From IMG/VR virus record IMGVR_UViG_3300025151_000020, positions 29,311-93,310 of that record: a stretch of DNA of 64,000 nt; one strand, 5' to 3'. The position numbers and the translations under genes are program-made. Positions 40,887 to 62,274 of this stretch are shown piece by piece; positions within the stretch are counted from its first letter, which is position 1; each line of letters begins with the position of its first letter. The notes under the pieces are model-generated. The model made no database searches. It worked only from the letters and a program-made list of their open reading frames with translations, and was not told the DNA's origin. The DNA is from a virus.

Positions 40887-41351
40887 CTATCGTTGCCCCT
40901 TCGCACCTGCGTTTCTAAGTTTCGCATTTACATTGGATTCTGCCTGTGTTTCTTTGAAATCTGTTGAGTTTCCTCGTGTTGAAGATGATGCATGAGCTCC
41001 ATCAACTCTTTTAATATTCACAGGAGATTTGCCGCCTGATCTCTTTGTGCTAATCTTTCTTTGACTTCTACCTAAAGTTTTCAATGAAGGCAATTCTGTA
41101 TTTCTTGTCATAGCCTCTGATTCCTTGATTGGCATTTGACCGTAATCCTTGCCATCTTCTTTGACCATATGCCAAACCATGTCAAATGATTTCTTCAAAT
41201 CATCTGGGTGTTTGCCTTCCTTTTTGAGATCCTTGTAACATTGACACATAGGCTCTTTAGCGGAGCATTTCATAATTCCTTTTTTCATACAAGCACAAGG
41301 ATTGCTCTCTGTTGCTCCACAACAACAACTTTTTCTTTTCAACTCAGCCAT
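40887..41351 (-). CDS. Cys-rich basic protein carrying the F-D-x-x-W packaging-like tag
   Basis: 154 residues from the ATG at 41351, which overlaps the upstream stop (TGATG). The N-terminus has a dense Cys set (KSCCCGATESNPCACMKKG, then KCSAKEPMCQCYK), probably a zinc cluster. At residues 56-64 lies SFDMVWHMVKEDG, one of nine copies of the recurrent tag described in the findings (bases 41160-41186). The C-terminal 80 residues are Lys/Arg/Ser-rich and probably disordered. It looks like a small DNA-binding or condensing protein that could be packed in the capsid. Confidence 0.6.
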   Translation of the reverse strand: MAELKRKSCCCGATESNPCACMKKGIMKCSAKEPMCQCYKDLKKEGKHPDDLKKSFDMVWHMVKEDGKDYGQMPIKESEAMTRNTELPSLKTLGRSQRKISTKRSGGKSPVNIKRVDGAHASSSTRGNSTDFKETQAESNVNAKLRNAGAKGQR

Positions 41352-41977
41352 CAGCAATTCCACCTTTTCAGAGCTGCACCCTTTGGAGTTAGTTTGCCAC
41401 CTTTACTTGTTGGTCCTTTCACTCCACCCATACGAGCACAGAAGGACTTGCGTCTTTTCGCTTTCTTACTTCCAGGTTTCAATTTAGATGGTTTTGTGGT
41501 AACAGGAGGTTTGAGGTTTGCACCTTCCTCACGCTTGAACTTGGCACGACCCTTTGCATTCAAACCGCCTTTACGACTATGTTTGTTTGGATTATAACCA
41601 TGAAACGGCTTGTCTTTCTTCTTGCCTTTGATTAGCATGGCCTTTACAAGAACATTGCAAGTAGGACAATCACATGATTTTACCATTGTTGGCTTTCCTC
41701 CTACTCCTTGTGGTTTGCTTCTCTTTCTCTTTGTAGCGGCCTTCTTTTCCTTAGCACTCATTGATCCTGCCGTTTTTGGTGTTTTCTCGCTGACCTTCTT
41801 TGAAGGGCGGCATTTCGGATAGCCTCTTTTCGATTTGTCAGCATCATCCCTACCGCATGGCGGGTGTTTGCCATCCTTGTCTTTGCGTGAAACATCAACC
41901 CATTTTTCTTTGAACCAATCTCTGAGGTCTTTTTCCTCTTTGAGGAGTTTAGAGAAAGGAAGTGCCTCGGCATTCAT
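41351..41977 (-). CDS. Basic DUF5872/DUF6321-like protein
   Basis: 208 residues from the ATG at 41977 (MNAEALPFSKLL), overlapping the upstream stop. Near the start, LRDWFKEKWVDVSRKDKDG, then CGRDDADKSKRGYPKC and SMSAKEKKAATKRKR match the DUF5872-type domain of marine phages. The end (GRAKFKREEGANLKPPV, KSFCARMGGVKGP, ALKRWNC) matches the DUF6321-type pattern. CDCPTC in the middle may bind zinc. The protein is strongly basic. Neither domain has a known function, and they commonly lie near portal and capsid genes. Confidence 0.7.
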   Translation of the reverse strand: MNAEALPFSKLLKEEKDLRDWFKEKWVDVSRKDKDGKHPPCGRDDADKSKRGYPKCRPSKKVSEKTPKTAGSMSAKEKKAATKRKRSKPQGVGGKPTMVKSCDCPTCNVLVKAMLIKGKKKDKPFHGYNPNKHSRKGGLNAKGRAKFKREEGANLKPPVTTKPSKLKPGSKKAKRRKSFCARMGGVKGPTSKGGKLTPKGAALKRWNC

Positions 41978-42180
41978 TTCTTCCCCTTCTTTTTCCAACC
42001 GCCACCTGCTTTCTTGTATTCCTTAGCCGCCCATGCGTTTGCATATGCAGAAGGATACACATCAAACTTGGACTTAGCCCTAGATTTCATTTTTGACCAT
42101 AGACCAGGGTTAGTGGGTGCATTATCGCCCTTTTCTTCACCCTTTACTATTGACCAGCCTACTTCGAAAGCGTCTGCCAT
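41974..42180 (-). CDS. Small tagged basic protein
   Basis: 68 residues from the ATG at 42180, with the tag MADAFEVGWSIVKGEEKGD at the very N-terminus (bases 42142-42168). This is nearly the same opening as that of the adenine methyltransferase 20 kb away (MADAFDQAWGVAK). The rest is a compact basic module (SKFDVYPSAYANAWAAKEYK, GGGWKKKGKK) of a kind I associate with small DUF5872-neighbour proteins in marine phages. The clean tag-plus-module layout makes it a good candidate for capsid cargo. Confidence 0.65.
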   Translation of the reverse strand: MADAFEVGWSIVKGEEKGDNAPTNPGLWSKMKSRAKSKFDVYPSAYANAWAAKEYKKAGGGWKKKGKK

Positions 42181-42213
42181 GAAGGACAATGAAAGTTCAA
42201 TCGTTTATCTGAT

Positions 42214-43680
42214 TTACTGCGGAGGAGGAGGAGGTTGTTCTCCTCCCTGTTGAGCTGCAGCCGCCTGTTGCTCTGCGGCAACTTCCTGTGGATCAGGTTC
42301 TTGATAGTCAAACTCAAGGAACTTATCATCAATTTGATCTCTCAATTGTGCTTTGTATCCTGCTTGCTTCATCTGCATCATGTTACGGATAGCCATCTCA
42401 TCTCTGCGGAATCGCATGATTTCATCTTCTTCCTCGTGTGGGTTGAGTGTAATTGTCCATTCATCCACGCCAAATGCTTCTAGCAATAATGGGAATAGTT
42501 GCCTGTTGTATATTGATTGAGCATATGCCAAAGCCCTGTTTGTAACAACAATCTGCATACCTTCGTTGTTTAACCCACCACCAGATACATCATTCATGAA
42601 TACATTTGATACACCATAGTATGCAGATATGCGTTGTCTAATGTCATCTTTGATAGGTATGTATTGCAGTTCCTCCAAAGTATCCATCATACGAACATAC
42701 TCAAGACCGCCCCTGCCTGATTCAGTTTCAACGCCAATCGTTGGAACATAATTTGGATCACGCTCAAGATGTTCTTGGATATTACGAGCAGTTCTCTCAA
42801 CAGTTTCCATGTTAGATGATTTAATCACCATGACACCACGAGGCATTCTCCTCTTCTGATATGCAGAATAAACATAGTTATCCATAGCAATGAGCGTATT
42901 TACCTGCCTCCACATAGTAGCAACAGGACTACGACCATACAGTTTGGATGGCGACCATTTGCTGATGTGTATGACTTCTCCCTCAGTATATACCTGGCCA
43001 TTCCCAACACCTGCTAAGTTGATGTAATGAATAGGAACAACAGGCATACCAGACACAGGACATACTGCATCGGGGTCGCTTGTTCTGAATGAACGGTCAA
43101 TCAAACTCGTATATTGTGATCCTCCTCTTATCCCCCTCTTGTCAGACAATATCCTCATGAATATGGGGTCTGCCCTGGATACTTCTCTTATTCTGAAGAA
43201 CATAGGTTGCTTAGTAGCGGGGTCAATGAAATACTCCTTTGTCAGAACAAGATATGCATCATCAACAATATTGAGATCCATTTCTATCTCTCTAAGAACT
43301 TCAATGAAGTTTTGTGTCATCCTGTTGCCACCCTTTAGAACCGCATCGGCATACTCGATCTGCGATTTGTCGGCTTTGCGTACCTCTCCTCCGCATTCCT
43401 TGCAAGCATCAACTTCTTGGTGATACTCACTTTCACACTCTCTGCATTTGCATACAAACTTGGATTTCCATTCCCATCCCTTTCTGAATGTTTCAACGCA
43501 TAAATGATTGAGGATGGATCTTAGAACCATGCACTCATATGCCGCAGCGTATAATGCAGGTATGGTAATTCCTTGCAATAAAGGCGGTTCTTGGACACCA
43601 TCGGTAAATAGGGGCATGGATGGAATAGGAGTATTATGCCTCTCCATATCCATGCCAATAGCTGCAAACATTCTTTCCAT
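42214..43680 (-). CDS. Portal protein with inserted zinc ribbon
   Basis: 488 residues. I prefer the ATG at 43680 (MERMFAAIGMDM) with GGTTGAT upstream over a TTG six codons earlier. Typical portal elements are the helical start, VIHISKWSPSKLYGRSPV, then MWRQVNTLIAMDNYVYSAYQKRRMPRGVMVI (stem and wing), and GGGLNNEGMQIVVTNRALAYAQ near the crown. An uncommon feature is CKCRECESEYHQ with CKECGGEV at about residues 77-99, a complete zinc ribbon inside the wing region. The C-terminus is Gln/Ala/Pro-rich. The portal forms the dodecameric DNA gate that docks the terminase. Confidence 0.87.
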   Translation of the reverse strand: MERMFAAIGMDMERHNTPIPSMPLFTDGVQEPPLLQGITIPALYAAAYECMVLRSILNHLCVETFRKGWEWKSKFVCKCRECESEYHQEVDACKECGGEVRKADKSQIEYADAVLKGGNRMTQNFIEVLREIEMDLNIVDDAYLVLTKEYFIDPATKQPMFFRIREVSRADPIFMRILSDKRGIRGGSQYTSLIDRSFRTSDPDAVCPVSGMPVVPIHYINLAGVGNGQVYTEGEVIHISKWSPSKLYGRSPVATMWRQVNTLIAMDNYVYSAYQKRRMPRGVMVIKSSNMETVERTARNIQEHLERDPNYVPTIGVETESGRGGLEYVRMMDTLEELQYIPIKDDIRQRISAYYGVSNVFMNDVSGGGLNNEGMQIVVTNRALAYAQSIYNRQLFPLLLEAFGVDEWTITLNPHEEEDEIMRFRRDEMAIRNMMQMKQAGYKAQLRDQIDDKFLEFDYQEPDPQEVAAEQQAAAAQQGGEQPPPPPQ

Positions 43681-43690
43681 TTTTTTGCTA

Positions 43691-45067
43691 TCAACCAAGT
43701 GTCATCACCTCCTCTTTCATCTTGTCGAAGTCATCCACACTTATTTTGTGTTTCCTTAGCAATTTTGACCTTTCGGACATATCTAACGATTCATATGCCA
43801 TTACCATGAGTGTAGGTTTATCGCCTCTCATAGCCTTCAACATAGTCAATGCCGAGGGGAATGTATCTTTTGATTTACCGTTGAAATGAGGTTCTGCTAA
43901 CTCAAGTGCTTTCATTACAGTATCTTCGCCTTGCATAACCAATCCGATACCTCTTGCTTCCACACCAGGTAAGCCCATCTTCTGTAAGGCACTTGCATAC
44001 CAGGGTGCAGTTGGTGCTTTGAAACTAATTTCCAATCTTGGGTATAATCTTGAGTCAAACTTGAATCTGCCACCGTTTTCAATCAAACCTGCCAAGAATC
44101 TGTCTGCGTCTTTGAGAACTATATCTCCCCTTCTAATGTCGTAAAACAATCCCCTTCCTTGAGATTTGCTCAATTGACCTATTGCAATTATATCAAACAA
44201 GAAACCATGAGATTTGATTAAAGAAGATATTTCAGCAGGGCTTGCTTGTACTCCATATGTCTTCAATGTCTGAGCGTTCAATGCCCCTCTATCCAATAAG
44301 ACCTGTCTGCAATTCTTCAAAATTGCTCTTTCACGGTGCGACATTCGCTCAGACTTGTCAATGGTCATCCTCCAAATCCTTTCTGCATCCTTTCTGCCAT
44401 CTTCAGTAGGATCACTAACCCATGTCTTCACAAATCTTCTAAATGGCAAATCCAAACGATTCTTGTTGTTATTCAAAGAGTCAAAATCAAGATCCGTCAG
44501 AGGTAAAGACTCATACAAATTAGGATTGACACCCGTAAATTGAGCAAGAATTGATTGCTTTTCTAACTTAAGCAATGGTTGTATTGCATCAAGAACCTTG
44601 TTTTCTCTAGCCTTGACCAATATCTCTGTTACCTCTCTTCCTGTCATTCCAAAGTTTTCTGGAAACCAATTCTTCATTTTAGCAAGAGGCACAGGAGGAG
44701 GTGCTTCCGAGTCAAGTTCAGTTCCAGGTTGGTCTGTGGGAGGAGTGCTATTGTCATTCTTCATTCCCGTAATCTCAGTACCCTCTCCTTCTTGAGTGGA
44801 GGGTTGGTCTTTTACCGCTTGTTCTTGTTCTGCATTTTTCTTCTCTGCTTCTGCTAATTCTGTTTCGGCCTGTGCTACTTCTTTCTGTTTGGCTTGTAGT
44901 TTATTCTTGATAGCATCAACACCCATTGATGCCGCAGCTCCGATTGCCTTTTTACCCGCAGGAGATGAAGCAATTGCTCCGGCTGCACGAAAAACGGCAG
45001 GTGCAATCTTCTCAACAGAATCAGTCAAATCATTTACCCCATGTACGGGTTCGAGGTATTTACGCAT
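43691..45067 (-). CDS. Head-associated protein between terminase and portal, unknown
   Basis: 458 residues from the ATG at 45067, which overlaps the TerL stop (ATGCGTAA). An Ala-rich helix (APAVFRAAGAIASSPAGKK) and a coiled coil (QKEVAQAETELAEAEKKNAEQEQAV) are followed by a disordered Pro/Thr/Glu linker. From about residue 130 comes a large folded domain (WFPENFGMTGREVTEIL, RRFVKTWVSDPTEDGRKDAERIW, SHRERAILKNCRQVLLDRG). I recognise no family. The position between large terminase and portal suggests a packaging or early assembly function. Confidence 0.6.
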   Translation of the reverse strand: MRKYLEPVHGVNDLTDSVEKIAPAVFRAAGAIASSPAGKKAIGAAASMGVDAIKNKLQAKQKEVAQAETELAEAEKKNAEQEQAVKDQPSTQEGEGTEITGMKNDNSTPPTDQPGTELDSEAPPPVPLAKMKNWFPENFGMTGREVTEILVKARENKVLDAIQPLLKLEKQSILAQFTGVNPNLYESLPLTDLDFDSLNNNKNRLDLPFRRFVKTWVSDPTEDGRKDAERIWRMTIDKSERMSHRERAILKNCRQVLLDRGALNAQTLKTYGVQASPAEISSLIKSHGFLFDIIAIGQLSKSQGRGLFYDIRRGDIVLKDADRFLAGLIENGGRFKFDSRLYPRLEISFKAPTAPWYASALQKMGLPGVEARGIGLVMQGEDTVMKALELAEPHFNGKSKDTFPSALTMLKAMRGDKPTLMVMAYESLDMSERSKLLRKHKISVDDFDKMKEEVMTLG

Positions 45068-46478
45068 CCGCCCACCCCAACCTGTTACGCCACATCTCAC
45101 CGTCTAGGATAATTATGTTTTCCCGATATTCCTTAGTCGCTTGTACCGAAAGTGCAAGGGCAATCACCATGTCGTCATGTGATCCAAGACTTTCCATCCT
45201 ACCATTATCAAGCATGGTGAACATGGATAATTCATTCAACAAGGTATTCATATGCCTCTTTGTTGCACCTTCATCTTTGTAAGGTACGGCTAGATGTTTT
45301 CTTTCAAAGTGCAATTGCAATGTATGAATCAATGCCTCCTTTTTCATACGACTCATATTGAATGGTTTGATAGGCAGATCGCCAATCTCTTGAAGGACTT
45401 GATTGAAAGCCATAGCAAAATTGTTAGTTTCTAATTCAATTATAACGGGGTTGAACCTAGCATTCAATTCTATTATCTTGTCAATCTGTTGATTGAAATC
45501 CATGTTTTTCTCGTGATGAACATGGACTATCCTCTTGTGCCTATTCTCATCCATGCCAATTACCATCATACAAGTGTAATCCGCACTTCTGTTTGCACTT
45601 ATTGCAGGGTCCCAACCAATGTAGTAGTTCAATTCCTCAGTTGGATCAGGATAGTAAGATAATGCAAGAGAATCATCTTTTACTCCTTCAAGCATTTCTT
45701 CTGGGAATAAACTCGCTTCACTTGCTATTGGCTTACATAGGTACTCACGAGTAAATGCAATAGATGTCATTTCACCCCTTCTAGTATTCAATGCCTCAAG
45801 ATTCCACCTCTCCGGCCACAATGGTTCGCCTGTTGCTTCATTGATTGCAGGATATTCTTTCACACAATACCCGTCTAATCCTTTCAATTCAGAATATAGA
45901 TCGGTATATGAGAACGGTGTTCCGACTACACACATTTGAGCCGTGTGGTGGAGAACGGGCAAAAGAGCAGTATAGAACCATGTAGATATGGATTTCAATT
46001 GAGTATCTGCTTCACTTGACAATATGTCATCCAGAACTACTATATCTGGGTGAGCACCACGAACCGCCTTTCCTATGGACATAGCTCGTATTGATGATTT
46101 ATTTGTCATCTTGAATAATTGCTTTGCCCAACCTCTCTTTGGCTTAAGATGTGCAAGTGCAGGAGTTGTCATAATCAATTCATCCATCTTTGCCATATGG
46201 TCTATGGATTGGTGCTGACTGTGGCTAAAGAACAAAACTTCCGTACCAGGATTATATGCCATCTTCCATAGAAGATATACTCTAAAGAACACGGATTTGC
46301 CGTGATCTCTGCTTGCTATGACGCATACTTTGTTGTGTTTCTCTGCATTCTCATACCACTCTTTATGAAAATGTGCTAATTGAAATTGACATATGTCCTC
46401 AAAGAAGAAACGGAAATCTCTCCTTCCCATTTCCCAATCAACTTTGCTCGTTAATTCGAGCATTGCGTCATTAGTCAC
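45060..46478 (-). CDS. terL: Terminase large subunit
   Basis: 472 residues. The ATPase domain has the Walker A-like ASRDHGKS (residues 55-62) and Walker B DIVVLDD (145-151). The nuclease domain begins at about 285 with GWDPAISANRSADYTCMMVIG, holding the first metal-binding Asp, and ends with SLGSHDDMVIALALS, holding the last acidic pair. TerL docks on the portal, pumps DNA into the prohead and cuts it. The frame starts with a GTG overlapping the upstream stop (GTGACTAA). An ATG at 46463 is a possible alternative. Confidence 0.92.
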   Translation of the reverse strand: MTNDAMLELTSKVDWEMGRRDFRFFFEDICQFQLAHFHKEWYENAEKHNKVCVIASRDHGKSVFFRVYLLWKMAYNPGTEVLFFSHSQHQSIDHMAKMDELIMTTPALAHLKPKRGWAKQLFKMTNKSSIRAMSIGKAVRGAHPDIVVLDDILSSEADTQLKSISTWFYTALLPVLHHTAQMCVVGTPFSYTDLYSELKGLDGYCVKEYPAINEATGEPLWPERWNLEALNTRRGEMTSIAFTREYLCKPIASEASLFPEEMLEGVKDDSLALSYYPDPTEELNYYIGWDPAISANRSADYTCMMVIGMDENRHKRIVHVHHEKNMDFNQQIDKIIELNARFNPVIIELETNNFAMAFNQVLQEIGDLPIKPFNMSRMKKEALIHTLQLHFERKHLAVPYKDEGATKRHMNTLLNELSMFTMLDNGRMESLGSHDDMVIALALSVQATKEYRENIIILDGEMWRNRLGWADA

Positions 46479-47763
46479 TCTTCCACCCCGATGGTAACAA
46501 ACTCATGTCGTCACCACCTGGAGCATTCTTTGCGAACAAAGAAGCAGGTAGTAATGACAAGTCATCTCCTTCAACTACATCAAAACCAAGATCCGGCTTG
46601 CTTTCTTCTTGTGGTGGCTGGCTTTTGATGATTGGTGACATAGGCTCACTTACATTACGCCTTACCTTTACGGTTTCAAGATAGTTGGGATTGTGGAATG
46701 GGTTTGCAAACGGATCTTTGAGAACAAATTGCTTTCCAAATATATCGTCATACCTTTCTGCGGCAGAGGGAAAGTGATCCTCTAAATCTCCCATGCTATT
46801 GTAAAGGTGTACTCTTGCGGTTTCATCCCCCTCTTCGGCCAAATCCAACAATTCTGTTATCAAACTTGAATCAGTCATAGGAGTGATGTTTGGCAAATCA
46901 TAAATGTCCTTTGGTATTTCTTCTATTTCAATATCTTCATCATTAGGTTCTGCTTCTTTGGGTAGTGTAGGGAGTTCTCCCCCTGTTTGCTCTAGTAAAG
47001 CCGCCAAAGCCTGTTGGTAGGTTTTATTTTCTTTCATGGCTCTATGTACTGCCCTATCCATTTCTTTAGTGCCTCCTCTTTCAAAATCTTTAGGGCCAAG
47101 CACAGAAACTCCAAACGCATCTCTATACAAATTAACAAAGTGACCTGGAACTATGTTCTCATCATAAAGTTCCCCTGTTAATTGCTTGATTCGTGCCTTT
47201 GGTTTTCGGTTTCTTGCAAACCCCGCAATCGCATCCTGGTTTGCTTGAACCGCATCGCTCTTAGGAGCAGGAATCTCTACCTTCTCTTTCTGGGGTTTCT
47301 TTGTTGCCGTTGCCTTAGCCTTAGCCTTTGGTTTAGGTTCTGGTTTAACCTCATTCTTTTTTTTTGGCGGTTTGGATACTAGATCGGTTGCTGATGCTTC
47401 TCTTACGGCATCAGCATCGGGTTCGGGAATAGTTGCCTTCATTCGTTCTTCCTCCTGTTCGGGTGTTTCTTCGGTTTGAGGAGGGTCTTCTGGTGGCGGA
47501 GAATCATCGGAAGTTGAGGTTGCAGCTTGTTCCTCCGATGATTCAGATGATTCTTCTTCTTGTACAGGAGCAGGAGGCGTTGTTGGCATTGGCCTACCAT
47601 ATTTCAGTTGAAAAGTTAGATTCTCTCCTCTCATCCTATCCGCTGCTCTCTCAGCAGCGATTCTCTGTTGGCGGTTTCTTGCCCAATCTCTTATGATTCC
47701 CTTGAACAGGTCATCATCGTCTATTGCTTCCCATGCCGTGTCAAACGAATCATCTGAAGGCAT
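46471..47763 (-). CDS. Tagged acidic/linker-rich head protein, unknown
   Basis: 430 residues from the ATG at 47763 (MPSDDSFDTAWEAIDD), overlapping the upstream gene by 14 bases. The N-terminus is a divergent form of the recurrent tag, in which the final Lys is replaced by Asp (bases 47719-47745). Next come a charged helical part, acidic and Pro-rich segments, and a Lys/Pro/Ala linker (KPKAKAKATATKKPQK). A small helical module follows (KEMDRAVHRAMKENKTYQQALAALLEQ), then a long acidic C-terminal half. It directly precedes terL. It might be a terminase partner or capsid interior protein. Confidence 0.6.
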   Translation of the reverse strand: MPSDDSFDTAWEAIDDDDLFKGIIRDWARNRQQRIAAERAADRMRGENLTFQLKYGRPMPTTPPAPVQEEESSESSEEQAATSTSDDSPPPEDPPQTEETPEQEEERMKATIPEPDADAVREASATDLVSKPPKKKNEVKPEPKPKAKAKATATKKPQKEKVEIPAPKSDAVQANQDAIAGFARNRKPKARIKQLTGELYDENIVPGHFVNLYRDAFGVSVLGPKDFERGGTKEMDRAVHRAMKENKTYQQALAALLEQTGGELPTLPKEAEPNDEDIEIEEIPKDIYDLPNITPMTDSSLITELLDLAEEGDETARVHLYNSMGDLEDHFPSAAERYDDIFGKQFVLKDPFANPFHNPNYLETVKVRRNVSEPMSPIIKSQPPQEESKPDLGFDVVEGDDLSLLPASLFAKNAPGGDDMSLLPSGWKSD

Positions 47764-49378
47764 TTCGAATTGCCTCCGTTGTGTGCTTATCTCGGAATAC
47801 CACTCTCTGCTTTTGCAAATCCCAATAGTCTGCAATCGGATCATCAAACGATGCCGTAAAGTCACCTGCCGCCATTGACCTCAATCTGTTTTGACCCTGC
47901 CTTCTTTGGGATGCGTTATACGCTCCTCTTGCAAGACCCGAAAGACCAAATGTTGCTACATTTGAAAGTAAGCCTGTTCCTATTCCTCCTTTAGTTCGTG
48001 CTTGTTGGCTTGCTTGATCGACTAATCGCTCTTGAGCATAAGTTGCTCCGTCTTGCTGACTAGCAGAACCCGTTGAAGCAGTTGATGGAGCAGACCCTGT
48101 TGCTTGTGCCGTCTGATTTCTTGTATCTGTTCCGGCTCTTGATCTCTCCTGCGTTCTTTCGGGTAAAGCGGCATTCTCTCCTGTTGTTGCGGGTAATGCC
48201 GTGTTAGTAGCTGCTCTTTGTTCGGGAGTCTGATAACCCATCTGCTCTGCAAATGCAGGTGGCAATCTTCCATACCTTTCTTGAAGGCGAGCGTTATTCA
48301 CATTTTGTCTAATCTGCTTCTGACCTTCCCTGTCCATAGCAGGTGCTCCTTCACCACCATATACTCGTTGATTCCTTGCCTCTATTGCATTCATAGCACC
48401 TTGACCGGATACTGCTCCTCTAAGTGCCGCCGCACCTTGACCGACTAAATTGCCCATGCCAGGCATAATCAAACCAGATGCATCTCTGCCTGATCTATCT
48501 GAACCATACATCGCAGTTCCTGCGGCAGAAGAAACTCCTCTTCCTACTGCGGATGCTCCACGACCTGTTGCACGACCTGCCGCCATTGCACCACGACCTG
48601 CGGCTCTAGCACCTGTGCCAATCGCTTGACCTGCGGCACGAGCTGCACCTCCTAGTGATGAGAATGCATTACGAGCCATTCCAGGTGTAGCGGAAGCAAC
48701 GGCAGAAGCACCCTGCCCTATCTTCTCGGCAGCACCCCTCATTCCTGCACCAACTGCACCTGCGGCAGAAGATGCTCCTCTGCCAACTGCACCTGCGGCA
48801 GAAGATCCTGCTCTGCTCATTGCACCTGCGGCATCTTGTGCTACATTGCCAAGAGATGAGAAAGCATTCTGAACCATGCCTGGTTGCCCTGCACTATGCC
48901 TGTTTGCCTCTGAAACAGGTGATCCTTCTCTATTGGTCAAACGACTCAATCTCTGATCAAACTCGTCACCAGGAGTACCCACAAGTGATTCTTTTGCACG
49001 AGAAGCACCTTGACCTATCTTCTCAGCCGCACCTCTCATTCCCGCACTAACCGAACCTACGGCAGAACCTGCTGATTCTTTTGCACGACCTGCTATATTT
49101 TTAGCGGCATCCATCATGCCTCCGCCTTCTCTTGGATTGGTAGCATCTGCTCTGAATCCTTCGCCCGCAAAGAAATTACTTATGCGTGGTGCAAACTCAT
49201 GGTCGCCCGTTTCTGGATTAACATATTTCTGATGTCTTTTGTATCCGGCATTTTTCATTTCATCATAGCCTTCTTCTCCTGGTAATTTTCTATAACCTGG
49301 ATTGCGAATGATTTTCTTTTCAAGACTCCATGATTGAACCGCTTTTCGGATTTCATCGTCATGTGCAAAACTAAGCAT
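47750..49378 (-). CDS. Ala/Gly-rich repetitive virion-like protein
   Basis: 542 residues. The ATG overlaps the previous stop (ATGCTTAG). A charged N-domain of 90 residues is followed by about 220 residues of low-complexity repeats built on GAAxKIGQGASxA, GRGASSAAGAVG and NAFSSLGxAA. A Gln/Thr/Ser linker and a basic C-terminal part follow (QRRQGQNRLRSMAAGDF). Such amphipathic Ala/Gly helices occur in ejection or membrane-channel proteins and in DNA-compacting proteins. Context favours a head or ejection protein. No family is recognised. Confidence 0.6.
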   Translation of the reverse strand: MLSFAHDDEIRKAVQSWSLEKKIIRNPGYRKLPGEEGYDEMKNAGYKRHQKYVNPETGDHEFAPRISNFFAGEGFRADATNPREGGGMMDAAKNIAGRAKESAGSAVGSVSAGMRGAAEKIGQGASRAKESLVGTPGDEFDQRLSRLTNREGSPVSEANRHSAGQPGMVQNAFSSLGNVAQDAAGAMSRAGSSAAGAVGRGASSAAGAVGAGMRGAAEKIGQGASAVASATPGMARNAFSSLGGAARAAGQAIGTGARAAGRGAMAAGRATGRGASAVGRGVSSAAGTAMYGSDRSGRDASGLIMPGMGNLVGQGAAALRGAVSGQGAMNAIEARNQRVYGGEGAPAMDREGQKQIRQNVNNARLQERYGRLPPAFAEQMGYQTPEQRAATNTALPATTGENAALPERTQERSRAGTDTRNQTAQATGSAPSTASTGSASQQDGATYAQERLVDQASQQARTKGGIGTGLLSNVATFGLSGLARGAYNASQRRQGQNRLRSMAAGDFTASFDDPIADYWDLQKQRVVFRDKHTTEAIRNAFR

Positions 49379-51200: not shown

Positions 51201-52550
51201 TCACCTACCATGCCCAACAACACCCGCTTCAACCAATACGGATGTATCGCCAAAGCGGTATGCGGCCTGATCTTCAATCCTCCCTGGTCCGTCTTCGTAA
51301 TGCTTTGAACTTGGATCTGATGACCTTTCTGGGCTTGCTTGCCCTCCCCTCTTTGCATTATCTCCTAGTTCAGGAGTGGCTTTTGTTAGTTTATTCAACT
51401 GCCTCAATATAGCCTCAACTTTCTTTTTGAGATGTAATATCTCGGTTCGGGATAATGCCGTTTTCTTTGATATGGAATCATCTGAACGCCTAATGTAATC
51501 TTCTGTTCCTAACGGGTCGCCATATCCTGGTTGAACCTTGATTGCATTTTTAGGGTTAGTTCCAAGTTGTGGAGATGACGGCATTTTTGTTCCTCTGCCC
51601 GAATCAACGGGATTTCCTAGAACAACTCCTCTAGTTCCTGTTTGGCTGATACCTGTTCCGCCTGTTCCATAATGATGAGTAAATTGTCGTGGTTGTGATC
51701 CTCTCGCCCTATACATTCTATTCTGAGCCTTCTTTCTTTCCCATGCTACGGGATCACGAAGCCTCAAAGGAATGGTTCTATCTCTTGTTGAACCAAGATT
51801 TCTCAATGGAAGACTTCTCGCATTGGGTGCGAATGATTGTCTTCGAGAATAAAGGTTGAGTTGCCTCTTAGCCCTACCCGCTTCCCTCTTGCTTTGCGAC
51901 TTCGGTTGCCTTCCGCCTGTGGCTTTGATTCTTCCACCGACTTTCCTGCCTCTTCTTCCTCTCCCTTTTCGTCTTCGTTTGGCTTTGGACTTTCTTCTTT
52001 CTTCGTCACTATCTTCATCCTCCTCGTATTTTCTTCCTTTGTATTTTCTTTTACCTTTGCTAATTGACCATGCATCCTCAAATGATTCGTCACTTGACAA
52101 AGTAATTGCTCTAGTGCCTCCTCGTGAAGGATGGCCGTATGTCACATTTGGCGTTGTGCTTCTAACTGTTCCTCTGTTTGCACCTGCTGACAATGACAAA
52201 CCATTAGCCCCAAGATCCACGCCAAGACCTGTTTCAAGCAATTCGTTCTCCTGCTCCATCATAGGACTCCTCTCCATTGCCTCATCCATTTCTTCGGGTT
52301 TGACGCTAATGTGTTGCAGACCAGGCATGAGTTCTCTCAATGCCTTGTCCTTACGCTTCTGAGGATTGGTTTGATCTCTGCTTTCACCATCTTCTGGTGT
52401 GGTTCTCGTGTGATGTGCAAGCCCCTCTGCATTTTCATTTGGATTGACATCAAGATCACCATAATTGCCCATTTCACGGGGTTTATGCCCGCCCATGAAC
52501 TCGGCTACTCTTGGTTTCCAACCTTGATATGAGTCACGAGGATTGCCCAT
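51201..52550 (-). CDS. Highly basic, disordered protein with internal tag
   Basis: 449 residues from the ATG at 52550. The recurrent tag appears internally as ESFEDAWSISKGKRK (bases 52056-52082, about residue 157), at once followed by a very basic stretch of Lys/Arg clusters (RRKSKAKRRRKGRGRRGRK and more) of about 100 residues. The rest is mostly disordered, with a short helical region (TEILHLKKKVEAILRQLNKL). It could neutralise packaged DNA, like protamine-type internal proteins. Placing the tag right before the basic module suggests a cleavable or separately delivered unit. Confidence 0.6.
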   Translation of the reverse strand: MGNPRDSYQGWKPRVAEFMGGHKPREMGNYGDLDVNPNENAEGLAHHTRTTPEDGESRDQTNPQKRKDKALRELMPGLQHISVKPEEMDEAMERSPMMEQENELLETGLGVDLGANGLSLSAGANRGTVRSTTPNVTYGHPSRGGTRAITLSSDESFEDAWSISKGKRKYKGRKYEEDEDSDEERRKSKAKRRRKGRGRRGRKVGGRIKATGGRQPKSQSKREAGRAKRQLNLYSRRQSFAPNARSLPLRNLGSTRDRTIPLRLRDPVAWERKKAQNRMYRARGSQPRQFTHHYGTGGTGISQTGTRGVVLGNPVDSGRGTKMPSSPQLGTNPKNAIKVQPGYGDPLGTEDYIRRSDDSISKKTALSRTEILHLKKKVEAILRQLNKLTKATPELGDNAKRGGQASPERSSDPSSKHYEDGPGRIEDQAAYRFGDTSVLVEAGVVGHGR

Positions 52551-56043: not shown

Positions 56044-56066
56044 AATGTCAGTCGTGTCAGGTTAAT
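56044..56066 (-). promoter_or_regulatory. Operator-like 23-bp repeat (copy 2)
   Basis: These 23 bases are identical to 57675-57697. The core on the plus strand is TGTCAGTCGTGTCAG, two TGTCA boxes 9 bases apart. The copy lies 9 bases upstream of the ATG of the gene at 55075-56034. Next to it is an 11-base near-palindrome, ATTAGGCTAAT, at 56065-56075. Confidence 0.55.
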
Positions 56067-56082
56067 TAGGCTAATCCATTTA

Positions 56083-56814: not shown

Positions 56815-56821
56815 GGGAAGA

Positions 56822-57049
56822 TCACTCCCTGTTCGTTATCCACTCCCAAACTTCCACAGGTCGCATTTCCCCAAAGTTGTCTAACAGAAATAAAGTGAAA
56901 AATGTTAGAGCAATTCCTCCGAACAACGCCACTACGGTTCGCACCCATCCAGCCAGCCGTTCCATCCTTCGTTCATAGGCATTTTCAGCAAGGATCTGTG
57001 ACATTGCTTCTGTTTGCCTTTCCTGTTTGGTGCTAAACGGCCACACCAA
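56822..57049 (-). CDS. Single-pass small membrane protein
   Basis: About 75 residues. The frame opens with TTG/GTG (start uncertain, after GGGGGGAAG). The first ATG is at 57004. A charged N-terminal helix (RQTEAMSQILAENAYERRMERL) precedes one membrane segment (VVALFGGIALTFFTLFLL, about residues 40-57), and a short C-terminus has Trp residues. It lies 7 bases before the Arf-like GTPase gene and could serve as its membrane anchor. A holin is another option by size, but most holins have more than one membrane segment or a basic tail. Confidence 0.55.
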   Translation of the reverse strand: MVWPFSTKQERQTEAMSQILAENAYERRMERLAGWVRTVVALFGGIALTFFTLFLLDNFGEMRPVEVWEWITNRE

Positions 57050-57060
57050 CTCTTCCCCCC

Positions 57061-57534
57061 TTATTGCTTGTCATCTTCGTTACTACCATCATTGGGGATT
57101 CCAAATAATTGTTGTCCTGTGGATTGAGTGAATTGATTGCCCCATTCAGCTCGCATTTGTTCCTTCTGAAACCTCCTGGACTGTAATTGCATCTGTTGCC
57201 TAAACCACTTGTCATATCGTGCTTCTTGCGAAAACTCTGCTCGCATGGCTAGACTATCTCTAATCCCACCAACTTGGAACAGAACCATTGCCAAGCAAAG
57301 GAATCCGAAAGCAATTAGCCCATACTGTAATCCCATCTCTCCAGGAGATGCGTTGGGGAGATACCAATCAAGATGCGATATACAAACCGCAGTTCCTGTT
57401 AGTAGTGATTGCCATAGCAACATGGCTATCAGATTTACATCAATTCTTTGGCTATCGTTTATTCCAAAGGGAGGAGCTGCTATTCCTCTCATTGGTGTTC
57501 CTGGCTTAGGGGGTTGCATTACCATCTTAATCAT
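57061..57534 (-). CDS. Two-pass membrane protein with coiled-coil C-terminus
   Basis: 157 residues. The ATG overlaps the stop of the ribbon-helix-helix gene (ATGA). Membrane segments are at about residues 32-52 (NLIAMLLWQSLLTGTAVCIS) and 71-91 (GLIAFGFLCLAMVLFQVGG). The C-terminal 60 residues are charged and Gln-rich (DKWFRQQMQLQSRRFQKEQMRAEW), probably a cytoplasmic coiled coil. It is the second gene after the regulator and lies in the operon of the Arf-like GTPase. It may bind the GTPase at the membrane. Confidence 0.6.
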   Translation of the reverse strand: MIKMVMQPPKPGTPMRGIAAPPFGINDSQRIDVNLIAMLLWQSLLTGTAVCISHLDWYLPNASPGEMGLQYGLIAFGFLCLAMVLFQVGGIRDSLAMRAEFSQEARYDKWFRQQMQLQSRRFQKEQMRAEWGNQFTQSTGQQLFGIPNDGSNEDDKQ

Positions 57535-57668
57535 CCTTCATTTTCTAATGCACGAAATCCTTTTTCGATCAACATATTACAAAATGCTGACTTGGATGCA
57601 AGTCCTCTTTTTGCTTCTAACAAATGATAGAGGTCTTCCCTCAGAATTACAGATACGTGCTTTCCCAT
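57531..57668 (-). CDS. Ribbon-helix-helix transcription regulator
   Basis: 45 residues. It starts at the ATG at 57668 (MGKHVSVILREDLYHLL). A beta strand with alternating side chains (HVSVIL) is followed by two helices (EDLYHLLEAKRG and KSAFCNMLIEKGFRALE) joined by a short turn with Ser. This is the size and layout of CopG/Arc-type ribbon-helix-helix dimers, which bind tandem short DNA boxes. The 6-base spacing from a TGACA-N4-TGACA repeat right upstream suggests autoregulation. It overlaps the next gene by 4 bases. It is too short for most automatic calls. Confidence 0.7.
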   Translation of the reverse strand: MGKHVSVILREDLYHLLEAKRGLASKSAFCNMLIEKGFRALENEG

Positions 57669-57674
57669 TGCAAG

Positions 57675-57697
57675 AATGTCAGTCGTGTCAGGTTAAT
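57675..57697 (-). promoter_or_regulatory. Operator-like 23-bp repeat (copy 1)
   Basis: This sequence directly precedes the ribbon-helix-helix gene and is identical over 23 bases to 56044-56066. The core, minus strand, is CTGACACGACTGACA: two TGACA boxes with a 9-base period, as expected for a tandem ribbon-helix-helix operator. A promoter cannot be told apart from an operator by sequence. Confidence 0.55.
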
Positions 57698-57714
57698 GAG
57701 TGTTCGGAGTAAAA

Positions 57715-58977
57715 TCACGGAAGAAACGCAGATAAATCGGGTTCTCCTTCTAACGGACTCATTAGACTTAGACGCTTCTCTTCCAATTGTTGTTGCACCC
57801 ACCATTGTTGTGCCATTGCCAAGTTCTTTTGTTCTTCATCTAAACTGTGATGAAAAGTCTTTGATCCATGACCTGTGTAATCTATCGCCTTTACATTAGG
57901 GTCCCAACAAGCATCGCAATTGTGCGTTTCACACCTGTTTTGTTCTCCTGTCTTACCTGCGGCAGGGCAAGCCCATACTGCTCCGTGATCATACCTATGA
58001 CTCGCATTGACTGAACTGCCCGTGATATTAGGATGTGATGCCATGAGTCTTTTCATTTGTTCCGAATGATGCACAGGAGCGTGTTGTTTGTGCTGAGAAA
58101 CCCTTATTGTGAGATTGGGAGGAATCTGCCCCCCTGCCTGTATAAACTCTCTCAGATGTTCATGCTCTCTTGTTGATAGCCAAAACTTCTTGTCAGGGTG
58201 TGCTCTTGCAACATCTGAATGGATTGCGAAGTGATGAGGGCTTTGCATATCTCCCGAAGCATTCAATCTAATTCTATCATGTCCTGCTTCCCCTATCTGC
58301 CAAGAAAGAGCTGCGGCATACATCTGGGGATTTGCTAAACCTAGAAGATTCCTAGTTTGATGTGCTTGAACGCTATCTGATTTCAGATGCATGACATTAT
58401 CAACATAGCAACCATCGCAAACCGTATCCTGATCGCTCTCTCTAAGTTTTGACCCCATGTTGCACCCCCAAGTAGGCAAATCTTCACTTGGACCCCACAT
58501 TTTATCCATATTACTCATACCATGCGTATCTTTGGTAGTGTGTCCTTTGATGTCATTGTCTTTGATAAACTTGCCAATAGCACGAGATGAATGTGCTCTG
58601 CTTGCAGGTATTGAACCTGTTTGATTTCTCCATATGTGTTCCATCATGTGAGTGCCGTCATCTGCTCTAAGATTGACACCTCCTTGTATTGGATAGTTGG
58701 ACAAACCCTCTCTGACTTGCTCTAATGCCTTAACATGAACCGGATCTATCTCTTTTCTCCTGATCCTTGTCAATGACCCTTCGCCCTGGAAGTTTTCCTC
58801 GCCTCTTGCAGCCGCCCAAAATTGACTACCTGTATTCAATTGGTTTCGTATCTCTTCAATACTTTTGGTGATTACATCCTGTATTGGCTCTTGATGTAGC
58901 GGATCTCTGCACACTTGGCAGTACAGATGAGAGTTATCATCATGGAGGAGTGCATTGTGAGGTATAGCTACCGCCAT
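57715..58977 (-). CDS. Gp88-like Cys-rich phage protein
   Basis: 420 residues. A short N-terminal zinc-like pair (CQVCRDPLH) is followed by a core that resembles the phage Gp88 family: GCNMGSKLRESDQDTVCDGC, then AHQTRNLLGLANPQMYAAAL, RIRLNASGDMQSPHHFAI, KKFWLSTREHEHLREF and ANLTIRVSQ-like NLTIRVSQHKQH. It ends with CPAAGKTGEQNRCETHNCDACW. Members have a barrel-like core with several conserved Cys, but their function is not established. The C-terminus adds a charged helix. The gene is followed after 46 bases by the ribbon-helix-helix gene. Confidence 0.6.
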   Translation of the reverse strand: MAVAIPHNALLHDDNSHLYCQVCRDPLHQEPIQDVITKSIEEIRNQLNTGSQFWAAARGEENFQGEGSLTRIRRKEIDPVHVKALEQVREGLSNYPIQGGVNLRADDGTHMMEHIWRNQTGSIPASRAHSSRAIGKFIKDNDIKGHTTKDTHGMSNMDKMWGPSEDLPTWGCNMGSKLRESDQDTVCDGCYVDNVMHLKSDSVQAHQTRNLLGLANPQMYAAALSWQIGEAGHDRIRLNASGDMQSPHHFAIHSDVARAHPDKKFWLSTREHEHLREFIQAGGQIPPNLTIRVSQHKQHAPVHHSEQMKRLMASHPNITGSSVNASHRYDHGAVWACPAAGKTGEQNRCETHNCDACWDPNVKAIDYTGHGSKTFHHSLDEEQKNLAMAQQWWVQQQLEEKRLSLMSPLEGEPDLSAFLP

Positions 58978-59137
58978 ATGTTCGCCCTAGAATTACCATT
59001 CATCAAAACTGTTGTGATGTGCAGAGGAGGTGGAACAAGGAGATGAAAAATCCGAATAGTAAGAAACGCATCAAGTGCCACCAGAGCGTTTAGTACCTCC
59101 CCTGCGAAATGAAGTAAAACGGACAATTGTTAATGAA

Positions 59138-59545
59138 TTATCCCGCAGTTATTATTCCATTGCAAGTGCTACAAACCGTGTATGAGTATGGGCCTTCTTC
59201 ATCCTCATCCTCTATGAGCAAAGCCCCATCCTTCCAATCTTGTATCTGTTGAGGACTAGCGGGTACTTGATTTCCAAACCTGTCATGTGCCATCCCATTG
59301 TATTCAGGGCAACTGCACCAATCATCCTCTGAATCCTTCTGTGCTATCAAATCCTCAGAAGTCGTTTGGCCTGTTCCATTACAGGAAGGACAAGTGACGA
59401 AATTGACGTTGATTGGGTTTCCTTGAGGATCATTCTCAGTAACTTGAACCTGGCCTCTGCCTTCGCATTGTGGGCATGAGTGCATACCGCCCTCTGTGTA
59501 TCTGACTTCTTTGACTATGTTCCAAGCCTTGTCAAAAGAAGTCAT
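59138..59545 (-). CDS. Tagged protein with DnaJ-type zinc repeats
   Basis: 135 residues from the ATG at 59545 (MTSFDKAWNIVKEV), so the recurrent tag is the very N-terminus (bases 59510-59536). After a short linker come CPQCEGRGQV and CPSCNGTGQT, the CxxCxGxG repeats of the DnaJ zinc finger, then CSCPEY and CSTCNG. DnaJ-type zinc fingers bind unfolded proteins, but there is no J-domain here. The role is unknown. The clean tag-plus-domain layout resembles the other tagged proteins. Confidence 0.65.
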   Translation of the reverse strand: MTSFDKAWNIVKEVRYTEGGMHSCPQCEGRGQVQVTENDPQGNPINVNFVTCPSCNGTGQTTSEDLIAQKDSEDDWCSCPEYNGMAHDRFGNQVPASPQQIQDWKDGALLIEDEDEEGPYSYTVCSTCNGIITAG

Positions 59546-59550
59546 CCTAA

Positions 59551-60063
59551 TCACTCAGTTATATGGACTTCTTCTCCACAAGCAAAACATTTGACTCCTG
59601 CTTCATTACTAAATCTAAATGGGCTGAAAGATGTCTGATTGCTTGAGTATTCTTGATTTTCTTCTCCGCAAAACGGACACATCCAAGTGTATTCTCCATC
59701 GGGATGGTCTTCAGGCACTTCACGGTGTCTTACCTTAACGGGTCTTTCTTGTTTAACAATGGGGTCTGGGTGACATCTGCAACTCGCCCAGGGCGATCTT
59801 TCTCCTTCTGTTCTAACCTTGACTTGCTCACCACAATCGGGGCATTTGGGTAATGGCACATCGCCATGATCAACGGCTCTATCTAACTGAGAGAAAAAAT
59901 CGTCTTTTTTTGCGAAATCCCATGCCTTTTCAAAAGGATCAGGATCTCCACGATTTGCTTTTAATCTATCACCACAACATTTGCCCGCAGCTTCCCCCGA
60001 ACCACAAGCACAAGGAGAACAAGTACAACTTTTAGGGCTACATTCAGGGCAATCTCTAGCCAT
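59551..60063 (-). CDS. Tagged SEC-C and zinc-ribbon protein
   Basis: 170 residues from the ATG at 60063 (MARDCPECSPKSC). First comes a Cys-rich head with CACGSGEAAGKCCG, which matches the SEC-C type zinc motif (CPCGSGKxxKxCC). Then follow the recurrent tag DPFEKAWDFAKKDDF (bases 59908-59934, about residue 44), the ribbon CPDCGEQVKV with CRC, and a last ribbon CPFCGEEN with CFACGEEV. In total there are three or four metal sites. A role in protein or nucleic-acid contact is likely. The exact function is unknown. Confidence 0.65.
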   Translation of the reverse strand: MARDCPECSPKSCTCSPCACGSGEAAGKCCGDRLKANRGDPDPFEKAWDFAKKDDFFSQLDRAVDHGDVPLPKCPDCGEQVKVRTEGERSPWASCRCHPDPIVKQERPVKVRHREVPEDHPDGEYTWMCPFCGEENQEYSSNQTSFSPFRFSNEAGVKCFACGEEVHITE

Positions 60064-60064
60064 C

Positions 60065-60265
60065 TCAATCACCCGTCATAGGCAACTCTTGAATCTGGTC
60101 CATAGCTCTTTCAAGTTCTGCCCTAATAGATGGTTCAATAAAACTTGATTGCATATCCATCGCCAATGTTTCCATAATAACATTGTACGCTGACATTGGC
60201 ATCCTAAGAGTAACCATGCCTTCCTCTTTAACAACATCAAAAGCCCTGTCAAACGTGTCCGTCAT
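60065..60265 (-). CDS. Small tagged protein, unknown
   Basis: 66 residues from the ATG at 60265 (MTDTFDRAFDVVKEEG), chosen because the tag then lies at the N-terminus, as in its neighbours. An ATG at 60286 is the alternative. The tag copy has Phe instead of Trp (bases 60227-60253). The remainder is helical (AYNVIMETLAMDMQSSF, IRAELERAMDQIQEL). It overlaps neither neighbour and sits in a row of four tagged genes. Confidence 0.55.
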   Translation of the reverse strand: MTDTFDRAFDVVKEEGMVTLRMPMSAYNVIMETLAMDMQSSFIEPSIRAELERAMDQIQELPMTGD

Positions 60266-60292
60266 GGTAATGGCCAAATAGCCCATTGTTGA

Positions 60293-60391
60293 TTAACACT
60301 CTTGTTCTGTCAAGCAAGTGCAACCATCATGGTCTATACCATCCCAACCACAATAACAGACTTCATGCGGCTCAACCTTTGGGTATGTCAT
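60293..60391 (-). CDS. Tiny Cys-rich protein
   Basis: 32 residues (MTYPKVEPHEVCYCGW and so on), with Cys at VCYCG, GCTC and the last residue, which could form one zinc knuckle. It starts at the ATG at 60391 with AGAGATCTC just upstream, and ends 7 bases before the next gene's upstream ATG. Density of Cys and position in a series of small zinc proteins support it. The short length keeps confidence moderate. Confidence 0.4.
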   Translation of the reverse strand: MTYPKVEPHEVCYCGWDGIDHDGCTCLTEQEC

Positions 60392-60429
60392 GAGATCTCT
60401 GACCTTCCATTGGTTAATTAGATCTTACA

Positions 60430-62274
60430 TCAATCACGCTGACCAAATGCGGTCTGCCGATAGAATCCTCTCATTGGCAGCTCGGAGTCCGGCCAAGTCT
60501 GCATTTCATTGACTTTCTCTTGACTCATGCCTGGTATGTTGGCCATTCCTACAACTTCCATGACTTCTCTTCCTTTACCCTGTATCCCTTTTTCTGTACG
60601 AGGAAGAACTTGATATCCGGTCAAACCGCCTGTATCCCATAGATGTCTTGGCATACGGGCAGAATTGAATGCAATTGTTGGAACTCCTGCATCAACTATG
60701 GGGCGAATAGCAGACATCAGCCTATGTGTGAATCCTCCAGGTTCTCCCTTATCACTTGCAATCAATTTATGTTCTCCAGGTTCTTGATAGTAAGGAGGGT
60801 CAGAAAGGAGGAATGATTTGTATTCAGGGTCTGCATAAGGGGCAACCGCTTCTAAGAACGGAACATGATCTCCCTCATGGAAGTGGTATTCCTTATCTCT
60901 CATCTCTCTTGACCAGGGTTCGTAACTGTATGGCACATCCACATCTCTGCCTCTTTTATCCACTCTTTGAGGTATGTATGGCAAAGTCGTATTGAGCGAT
61001 AATGATTTCGAACCCCCTCCTGCATGAATCAAATCCAACAATTCTTGTGATCTGCCATATGCATTAGGATATTTTGTTCGTACAAGTTCTTTCTGTTGCT
61101 TTGACGGACCACGAGGAGCGATATTCAATGAGTGCGTTGCTTCATCCCCTATGCGGAAATGCCCCCCAATCATCTGAGGCAACAGTATTCCCGTCAAACG
61201 AGCCATCTCTGCTGATTTATCGGGATTGGTTCGCCACTTGCCCTCATTCATCAATTCATTCATTTTCCTTCGCAACTCAAAGAATCTAAGATTAGATGCA
61301 TACATTTGGTCTGAGTCTAAACCCGCACCTCCTGTAATGTCATGAAAATCTCTAACCTCCTGTGCAGTAACGGAAGGCAAGTCAATTATCGGAGAACCTG
61401 GCATCAATCCAGGGAGTGTTCTCGGATCACCAACTCGGTATGTGTATTCTTCAGAGGGCTTCCACTCCAATAAATTGGGATTATCTCTAACATTCCTAAA
61501 GAAGTTCGGAATGAATCTGTTGTAATCGTTGCCTATGTACGCAACATGAGGTCTAACTGCAAACACACCGCCTCCACCACCGATATTCGGCTCAATCATC
61601 TCTTCTGATCCTGTTCTACCAAAAGCATCAGTCAGAAACTTCTGGTAATGCCGTTTTGACTTGTTGCCCGAAAGCCCTGGAATCAAAGAGGGCATTGAGT
61701 CGCCTGACTCAAATCTCTCCCACGCTTGCTTAATGCCTGGTTGGAACTTGGTTACTGCCCATGAATCCTCAAACACATCGTTGGAGGTCGTCATCAAGTC
61801 ACCCCCACCCATAGACACGGGTTCTCCCTCTCTTTCTATGGCAGCTCTTGCACGATTGTCCTCGCATTCATCCCATGCAGCAAGACATTGACGGGCAAAG
61901 TTTCGTTCAGACGCTGCCCATTCCATATCTCCAAAATCCCTATACAATGCCACATCTCCATTTTGATACCCGTAATAGTTCAAAACGCCTTTCAATTCTT
62001 CACAAGACATATTCAAATGACTTTCATACACTTCTTGTTCTCTCATTGAATCTCCCTCCGAGTCATCAAACTGTCGAAGCAGGGCTATTACTCCGTCAGC
62101 GTACATTTGCCTAATATTCTGACAACAAACATCTCCCTCTTCAAGTGGGGGTTCAAGACTTGTATCCGGCATGGCCACTTCTTCTTGTTGTTGTTGTTGA
62201 ACAGTTCTTGCCATCTCCGCCCTTTGCTCATCAAACTTAGCAACGCCCCAAGCCTGATCGAAAGCATCCGCCAT
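60430..62274 (-). CDS. DNA adenine methyltransferase (Dam/D12 class) with two tags
   Basis: 614 residues from the ATG at 62274 (MADAFDQAWGVAK). The N-terminus is a tag copy (bases 62236-62262). A 140-residue Cys-containing helical domain follows, then a second tag (VFEDSWAVTKF, bases 61747-61773) and the methyltransferase. EPNIGGGGGVF (about residue 229) is motif I of D12 enzymes, with GNDYN downstream, and SDPPY (about 491-495) is motif IV, both needed for N6-adenine methylation. It may protect viral DNA from host nucleases. It starts 3 bases after the HMG-CoA lyase-like gene. An internal start may make the methyltransferase alone. Confidence 0.8.
   Translation of the reverse strand: MADAFDQAWGVAKFDEQRAEMARTVQQQQQEEVAMPDTSLEPPLEEGDVCCQNIRQMYADGVIALLRQFDDSEGDSMREQEVYESHLNMSCEELKGVLNYYGYQNGDVALYRDFGDMEWAASERNFARQCLAAWDECEDNRARAAIEREGEPVSMGGGDLMTTSNDVFEDSWAVTKFQPGIKQAWERFESGDSMPSLIPGLSGNKSKRHYQKFLTDAFGRTGSEEMIEPNIGGGGGVFAVRPHVAYIGNDYNRFIPNFFRNVRDNPNLLEWKPSEEYTYRVGDPRTLPGLMPGSPIIDLPSVTAQEVRDFHDITGGAGLDSDQMYASNLRFFELRRKMNELMNEGKWRTNPDKSAEMARLTGILLPQMIGGHFRIGDEATHSLNIAPRGPSKQQKELVRTKYPNAYGRSQELLDLIHAGGGSKSLSLNTTLPYIPQRVDKRGRDVDVPYSYEPWSREMRDKEYHFHEGDHVPFLEAVAPYADPEYKSFLLSDPPYYQEPGEHKLIASDKGEPGGFTHRLMSAIRPIVDAGVPTIAFNSARMPRHLWDTGGLTGYQVLPRTEKGIQGKGREVMEVVGMANIPGMSQEKVNEMQTWPDSELPMRGFYRQTAFGQRD
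61792..61806 (-). promoter_or_regulatory. Possible internal ribosome site and ATG for methyltransferase-only product
   Basis: The minus strand reads GGGGGTGACTTGATG: a GGTGA-type site four bases before an in-frame ATG at 61794. The product would begin MTTSNDVFEDSWAVTKF, placing the second tag at residues 8-16 just as in the other tagged proteins. The glycine codons of the linker explain part of the G-rich stretch, so this remains a proposal. Confidence 0.4.

Follow-up and report, generated by a model that had tools for sequence, protein, structure and literature searches.

Why should viral proteins with nothing else in common share one short peptide, and what might that peptide do? The question is raised by a 64,000-nucleotide stretch of viral DNA, bases 29311–93310 of the 93,310-base virus record IMGVR_UViG_3300025151_000020 (hereafter, the window), in which eight proteins carry between them nine copies of an ~11-residue motif (the tag; short consensus M-T-A-F-D-x-A-W-x-L-V-K). 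We confirmed that the motif is real. Sequence comparisons make it likely that magroviruses, the group to which we assign this virus below, use the tag as a portable address for virion cargo, and that it docks accessory proteins inside the forming head for delivery to the next host. A sequence-only reading had named the nine peptides as candidate capsid-packaging signals, and all nine were found exactly and in place, all on the − strand (residues are counted from the longest open reading frame [ORF] starts):

62236–62265, − strand: AFDQAWGVAK, at the N-terminus (residue 6) of a D12-type methyltransferase-like protein
61747–61776, − strand: VFEDSWAVTK, internal, residue 169 of 616 in the same methyltransferase-like protein
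60227–60256, − strand: TFDRAFDVVK, in which F replaces W, residue 11 of a 73-aa protein
59908–59937, − strand: PFEKAWDFAK, residue 46 of a 173-aa zinc-ribbon-like protein, behind a Cys-rich segment
59510–59539, − strand: SFDKAWNIVK, at the N-terminus (residue 6) of a protein of 138 aa, with a DnaJ-type zinc finger that scores below the Pfam cut-off
52056–52085, − strand: SFEDAWSISK, internal, residue 158 of a 451-aa late protein kept in relatives
47719–47748, − strand: SFDTAWEAID, a degenerate copy, residue 40 of a low-complexity protein adjoining the terminase large subunit gene (TerL)
42142–42171, − strand: AFEVGWSIVK, at the N-terminus (residue 7) of a 71-aa DUF5872-related protein
41160–41189, − strand: SFDMVWHMVK, residue 59, directly ahead of a detached portal C-terminal domain

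A conserved peptide tag on late proteins

Within the late-strand proteins of this virus, the tag pattern matched 10 times; 500 residue shuffles averaged 0.066 matches and never gave more than 1. Because the pattern was fitted to this virus's own data, relatives serve as the real test. In loci of TerL relatives taken from 80 viral contigs, there were 102 matches on the coding strand and 2 on the other, with about 0.6 per shuffle. In 13 near-complete related genomes (metagenomic, and of uncertain completeness), 131 of 802 late-strand genes were tagged, compared with 1 of 616 on the opposite strand (Fisher P = 1.7e-33, from genomes that are related rather than independent and genes called by a simple longest-ORF method with approximate starts). 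The corresponding tag counts were 138 and 1, and reversed or shuffled proteins of the same genomes gave no tags at the same score. The sole opposite-strand tagged gene (G028, 86616–86900) is part of an inverted block, where its neighbor is similar to one of this virus's late genes. More distant viruses with homologous capsid protein, protease and TerL (G020, G021, G027 and G029) are also tagged, with I or M sometimes replacing F.

The sequence-only reading had suggested looking in relatives for clustering at the N-termini of head-module genes, and in the relatives tags were restricted to the late module, and 213 of the 245 scored across all genomes were N-terminal, while 27 were internal, often behind a linker, and 5 were C-terminal. 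One protein (G005, 15907–16350) has both N- and C-terminal copies. The more specific claim that the tag mostly lies within residues 4–16 fails for the longest ORFs of this virus (residues 6, 169, 11, 46, 6, 158, 40, 7 and 59) but fits its relatives, in which 355 non-redundant N-terminal tags lie no more than 12 residues downstream of a start codon, usually an ATG exactly three residues ahead of the F. Likewise, the placement of the tags beside head genes holds at the level of the late module; the neighborhood is not exclusive, as this virus has two more copies beyond the window, at the opposite end of that module:

record 24124–24396: tag copy MSIFEIAWTLAK
record 25989–26717: tag copy MIFEKAWDLVK

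The motif could also have been equally common in non-viral proteins. A start-codon-anchored DNA pattern run over 257 Gb of cellular genomes gave 43 single matches, a near-chance number, and the only true tag among them, with strong viral homology, was on a 106-kb virus contig in the Poseidoniales single-cell genome AG-422-I20. In a scan of the viral collection, the same pattern gave up to at least 11 matches per stretch among the matches listed. We rejected a cellular origin of the tag, as the cellular scan yielded matches at chance level only.

The 355 tags gave the consensus M-[TSN]-[AP]-F-[DE]-x-A-W-x-[LIV]-[LVA]-K, and the information is confined to positions −3 to about +11. The search required F, [DE], [AGS], W and K, and the informative part is the other columns together with the third codon positions. 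Where synonyms exist, these third positions were near maximal entropy (F, 0.97 bits; K, 1.00; A, 1.47), and this free variation indicates that constraint acts on the peptide. Upstream of the tags, only a Shine-Dalgarno sequence was present in otherwise unconserved DNA. AlphaFold models of two tagged enzymes, both of moderate confidence (mean predicted local distance difference test [pLDDT] scores of 71 and 62), placed a helix over residues 3–11, on the tag and in front of the enzyme fold; S/T-x-x-[DE] is known as a helix-capping pattern. We propose that the tag is a short amphipathic helix, usually just behind the start methionine, joined to its cargo by a variable linker.

The residues behind the final Lys had been suggested as a cleavage region, a suggestion that the data do not support: information falls to background within 2–3 residues of the Lys, no protease-like motif is apparent, and some copies are internal or C-terminal. 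In the 36 residues behind the tag, neither [LI]xE ([LI].E, 103 observed, 109.5 expected) nor another protease-like motif was enriched.

GCC almost never precedes TGG in the tag, which is explained by a strong avoidance of restriction-type palindromes in these genomes. Between 22 and 48 of the 64 six-base palindromes were wholly absent from each of the 76- to 116-kb genomes counted (G000, which is this virus, G001, G002, G005–G007, G012, G020, G021, G027–G029 and G032), where composition predicts about 0; HVTV-1 lacks 14. Among 21 viruses, CCWGG and CCSGG were nearly mutually exclusive, with no CCWGG in most and no CCSGG in four, including this virus (204 CCWGG); only G001 combined many copies of one with some of the other. 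Such extreme palindrome avoidance suggests strong restriction pressure, and we speculate, by analogy with T4 IPI and P1 Dar, that this pressure might be the setting for tagged cargo.

Tagged carriers, untagged core genes and a portal domain swap

The first 24 kb of the record hold an early-type module on the + strand (UvrD-type helicase, TCP-1/cpn60 chaperonin and C5 DNA methylase), in which no tags were found. The late module, on the − strand, includes terminase, portal, head maturation protease, capsid protein and probable tail genes. Its main carriers and core genes in the window are as follows:

60430–62280, − strand: tagged adenine methyltransferase-like protein, 616 aa, two tags; weakly similar to chain 2dpm, the DpnII methyltransferase (E = 0.03), the D12 family occurring among tagged proteins
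46471–47865, − strand: low-complexity protein adjoining TerL, 464 aa, degenerate tag, with C-terminal SLLP-type motifs by sequence
45060–46478, − strand: TerL, untagged (phrog_38, 3.8e-75; 0 tags in 15 orthologues)
42214–43698, − strand: portal, short form, 494 aa (PF04860, 6e-11; phrog_18178, 2.2e-53), without the C-terminal domain of the relatives' 576- to 613-aa portals
40887–41363, − strand: detached portal C-domain protein, 158 aa; a Cys-rich N-terminus, then the tag, then residues 60–158, a homologue of the domain that ends the relatives' full-length portals
34258–35640, − strand: head maturation protease, 460 aa, untagged (phrog_23555, 2.1e-16)
33063–34220, − strand: major capsid protein, untagged (phrog_24667, 1.1e-52; 32–33% identity to HVTV-1/HCTV-1)

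Terminase, portal core, protease and capsid protein had no tags in 13–15 orthologues each. The best pointer to the tag's role comes from the portal. In full-length relatives, it ends in a C-terminal domain of ~85–110 residues, while in this virus that domain is a separate gene with SFDMVWHMVK directly in front. The separate protein matched the portal C-domain at E = 1e-15, and a stand-alone copy in G002 at 4e-40. In a search of the related loci with a profile of the domain made from sequences trimmed of the tag, all 28 distinct detached C-domains were tagged and none of the 21 fused ones were; with the genomes added, the figures were 34 of 34 and 0 of 28, so that the tag persists in all 34 diverged detached copies. 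The portal tree places two changes between the fused and detached states, both on supported branches. As the T4 portal has its crown, wing and stem inside the capsid (PMC9958956), we infer by analogy that the magrovirus portal C-domain also lies inside. Because the portal C-terminus would normally be within the capsid, the tag appears to replace tethering there; the simplest reading is that it achieves in trans what a covalent link to the portal provides in cis.

Elsewhere, the carriers differ from one another. With the tags masked, the eight carriers of this virus showed no convincing mutual similarity (the best pair shared 43 residues at E = 0.016), as had been claimed, and in all the viral DNA fetched, 448 tagged proteins fell, once the tag was removed, into 186 families that share the tag only. 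About 16% of late genes are tagged, with up to 18 carriers per genome. Most tagged families have no known domain, the recognizable ones being D12 methyltransferase, NUDIX, GP88, DUF6321, DUF5872 and zinc ribbons; searches of Pfam, PHROG, NCBIfam and PADLOC gave few matches and no strong names for most carriers. A family that bears a YHGT motif matches the ADP-ribosyltransferase (ART) superfamily both in predicted fold (Foldseek, KptA at 1.7e-4) and in profile searches (KptA at 7.5e-4, catalytic domains of ADP-ribosylating toxins at about 1e-3). Another has the R-x-x-G-x-A motif of GNAT enzymes, and its top profile and fold matches, though weak, are all to acetyltransferases. A third is kinase-like, an assignment from its Gly-rich N-terminal pattern only; a profile search of the PDB gave no match. 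With its ART and GNAT folds, methyltransferase and NUDIX domains, the putative cargo looks like effectors or DNA-acting enzymes.

Seventeen families mix tagged and untagged orthologues, which indicates that the tag is a removable module. The carrier of TFDRAFDVVK belongs to an orthologous cluster in 6 genomes and is tagged in 3 of them, and most orthologues of the 451-aa carrier of SFEDAWSISK lack the tag. The divergent SFDTAWEAID is a genuine, though degenerate, copy, since orthologues of the TerL-neighboring protein have canonical tags (e.g., MPSDDIFDQAWDLAK in the relative G007). The same protein has terminal SLLP motifs (GDDLSLLPASLF and DDMSLLPSGW) and a DPFANPFHNP motif, kept between otherwise diverged orthologues; these are further candidate docking motifs.

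Other late genes of the window include an Ala/Gly-rich protein of 542 aa upstream of TerL (47750–49378), with a weak tape-measure match (phrog_305, 5.7e-4) and FTASFDDPIADYW near its C-terminus. An HMGL-like (pyruvate carboxyltransferase-type) enzyme (62277–63185; PF00682, 5.1e-32) is encoded next to the tagged methyltransferase, also on the late strand, and is an unusual metabolic gene for a virus. Two very large late ORFs (19443–29081 and 5188–11751; 3,212 and 2,187 aa) probably encode tail or fiber proteins.

The tagged viruses fit magroviruses, that is, tailed viruses of Poseidoniales, in genome size, opposed modules, a chaperonin (which we take to be a magrovirus trait) and a Druskaviridae-like head. 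The nearest named relatives of the capsid protein are in the Druskaviridae of haloarchaea. Magrovirales have 90- to 110-kb genomes, oppositely transcribed replication and morphogenesis modules, and a Druskaviridae-related head (PMC12999244), and in each of these respects we found the same here: a 93,310-base record, opposed + and − strand modules, and a Druskaviridae-like capsid protein. The TerL of a tagged relative (G004) is 99.6% identical to that on the 106-kb contig of AG-422-I20, a near-identity that indicates a Poseidoniales host.

Packaging and competing explanations

Packaging is the best-supported role because the tag is restricted to late genes and specific to viruses, core virion proteins lack it, unrelated accessory enzymes rotate through it, and it accompanies the portal C-domain swap. 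This much of the proposed packaging signal is well supported, if indirectly; the cleavage region is not. Late in infection, as procapsids assemble, tagged proteins would use the helix to dock onto a partner inside the head and so be enclosed there, with or near the portal and DNA. We infer that tagged proteins reside in the capsid interior, with the portal, the scaffold or some other conserved head protein as their receptor; candidates kept in tagged genomes include the portal, protease, capsid protein, a 1,113-aa protein, several unnamed late proteins and, as a rival to these, the chaperonin. The cargo would then be ejected with the DNA into the next host cell and act there, by analogy perhaps against restriction. 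In its fullest form, the proposal is that one helical address, read by the portal or other conserved internal head protein, serves as a general-purpose delivery code: it loads each particle with many enzymes that turn over quickly between viruses (ADP-ribosyltransferases, acetyltransferases, kinase-like proteins, methyltransferases and zinc proteins) for injection into Poseidoniales, and it can replace portal fusion; to this we would give about an even chance.

Several points weigh against a packaging role. The portal swap amounts to two independent events only, and with ~16% of late genes tagged anyway, the probability of its arising by chance is roughly 0.03. A conserved protease site behind the tag was looked for and none was seen, the AlphaFold models are of moderate confidence, and the tag is also on some proteins of no known site, such as the low-complexity protein adjoining TerL.

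We also considered whether the tag might bring proteins to the assembling head or portal within the infected cell, its carriers being assembly factors that are neither carried out nor ejected. The best-placed carrier, the detached portal C-domain, is a structural element, and another recurrent tagged protein is encoded beside TerL. However, most of the 186 families are variable accessory proteins, several of them enzyme-like and without an assembly role, unlike conserved assembly factors, and we regard this explanation as unlikely. Rather improbable, too, is a docking peptide for some other late hub, be it the thermosome chaperonin that the virus encodes, the tail tube or tape measure, or a virus factory. 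Chaperonins typically take amphipathic helices as clients, and a chaperonin is encoded in all 13 near-complete tagged genomes, but core structural and early proteins, also expected to need folding, are untagged, and the portal C-domain swap points to the head.

It is very doubtful that the tag is a non-functional gene-start cassette (Shine-Dalgarno sequence, ATGA overlap and first codons) spread by recombination of gene 5′ ends. Although 187 of 222 ATG-start tags begin ATGA, an overlap typical of tightly packed genes, a cassette or other nucleotide-level element as the sole cause is largely refuted by free synonymous variation around a kept peptide and by unconserved upstream DNA, and internal and C-terminal copies exist. 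Chance similarity, or an ordinary helix-start sequence, has next to no probability: despite a short motif that opens with a normal helix N-cap, it is refuted by the shuffled and reversed proteins, the strong strand bias and the cellular scan.

Magroviruses are among the most abundant marine viruses, Poseidoniales being abundant ocean archaea, and their accessory genes are almost all unannotated. As a packaging signal, the tag would mark which of these proteins probably travel in the particle, making the cargo set of an uncultured group readable from sequence, and would provide a testable loading signal for an archaeal capsid. It would also carry the concept of capsid targeting sequences beyond a few model phages, to a systematic code among archaeal viruses. 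We found no earlier report of such a tag in open-licence papers, the scope of our search; much of the primary magrovirus literature is by subscription and lay outside it.

Comparison with known targeting systems

The T-even internal proteins are diverse defense proteins that share only a capsid targeting sequence (CTS) (PMC3012670). In T4, ten residues of CTS suffice for head entry (PMC9026906), and the cargo includes the ADP-ribosyltransferase Alt and an anti-restriction protein (PMC3012670, PMC9026906). Like the CTS of IPI–IPIII and Alt, the magrovirus tag is about ten residues long, mostly N-terminal, and placed on accessory proteins that share nothing else; its carriers are likewise made with head genes, in a virus that has a head maturation protease. 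Unlike the CTS, it has another consensus, archaeal hosts and up to 18 carriers per genome rather than a handful, with no conserved protease site behind it and a position that is not strictly N-terminal. We do not file it as a T4-type CTS because that cleavage site and strict N-terminal place were not seen, though by analogy it would work like one.

In P1, a sequence in the packaged anti-restriction protein DarB directs a reporter to the capsid, although one short consensus common to many cargo proteins, as in magroviruses, is not described for this phage (PMC9024508). The closest structural analogues are the encapsulation peptides of bacterial microcompartments, in which a short helix is fused to cargo via a disordered linker (PMC12339742). 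The likeness drawn here is one of structure; those peptides serve a metabolic organelle rather than a virion. Encapsulation peptides are amphipathic, and are also allowed at C-termini or between domains.

Related through a homologous capsid protein are the Druskaviridae HVTV-1 and HCTV-1, which, like magroviruses, encode accessory domains in the head module. The FDxAW tag was absent from the 100 of 102 kb of HVTV-1 and the half of HCTV-1 that were covered. Unlike in magroviruses, the accessory domains there are fused into proteins of ~1,000–1,300 residues that repeat another module, about KEWVSDPTEQAPNRWTN.TGEHRYQETKPG, found in large head-region proteins at 14229–22563 of HVTV-1 (L385) and 11573–21303 of HCTV-1 (L387). 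This repeated module is possibly an analogous device.

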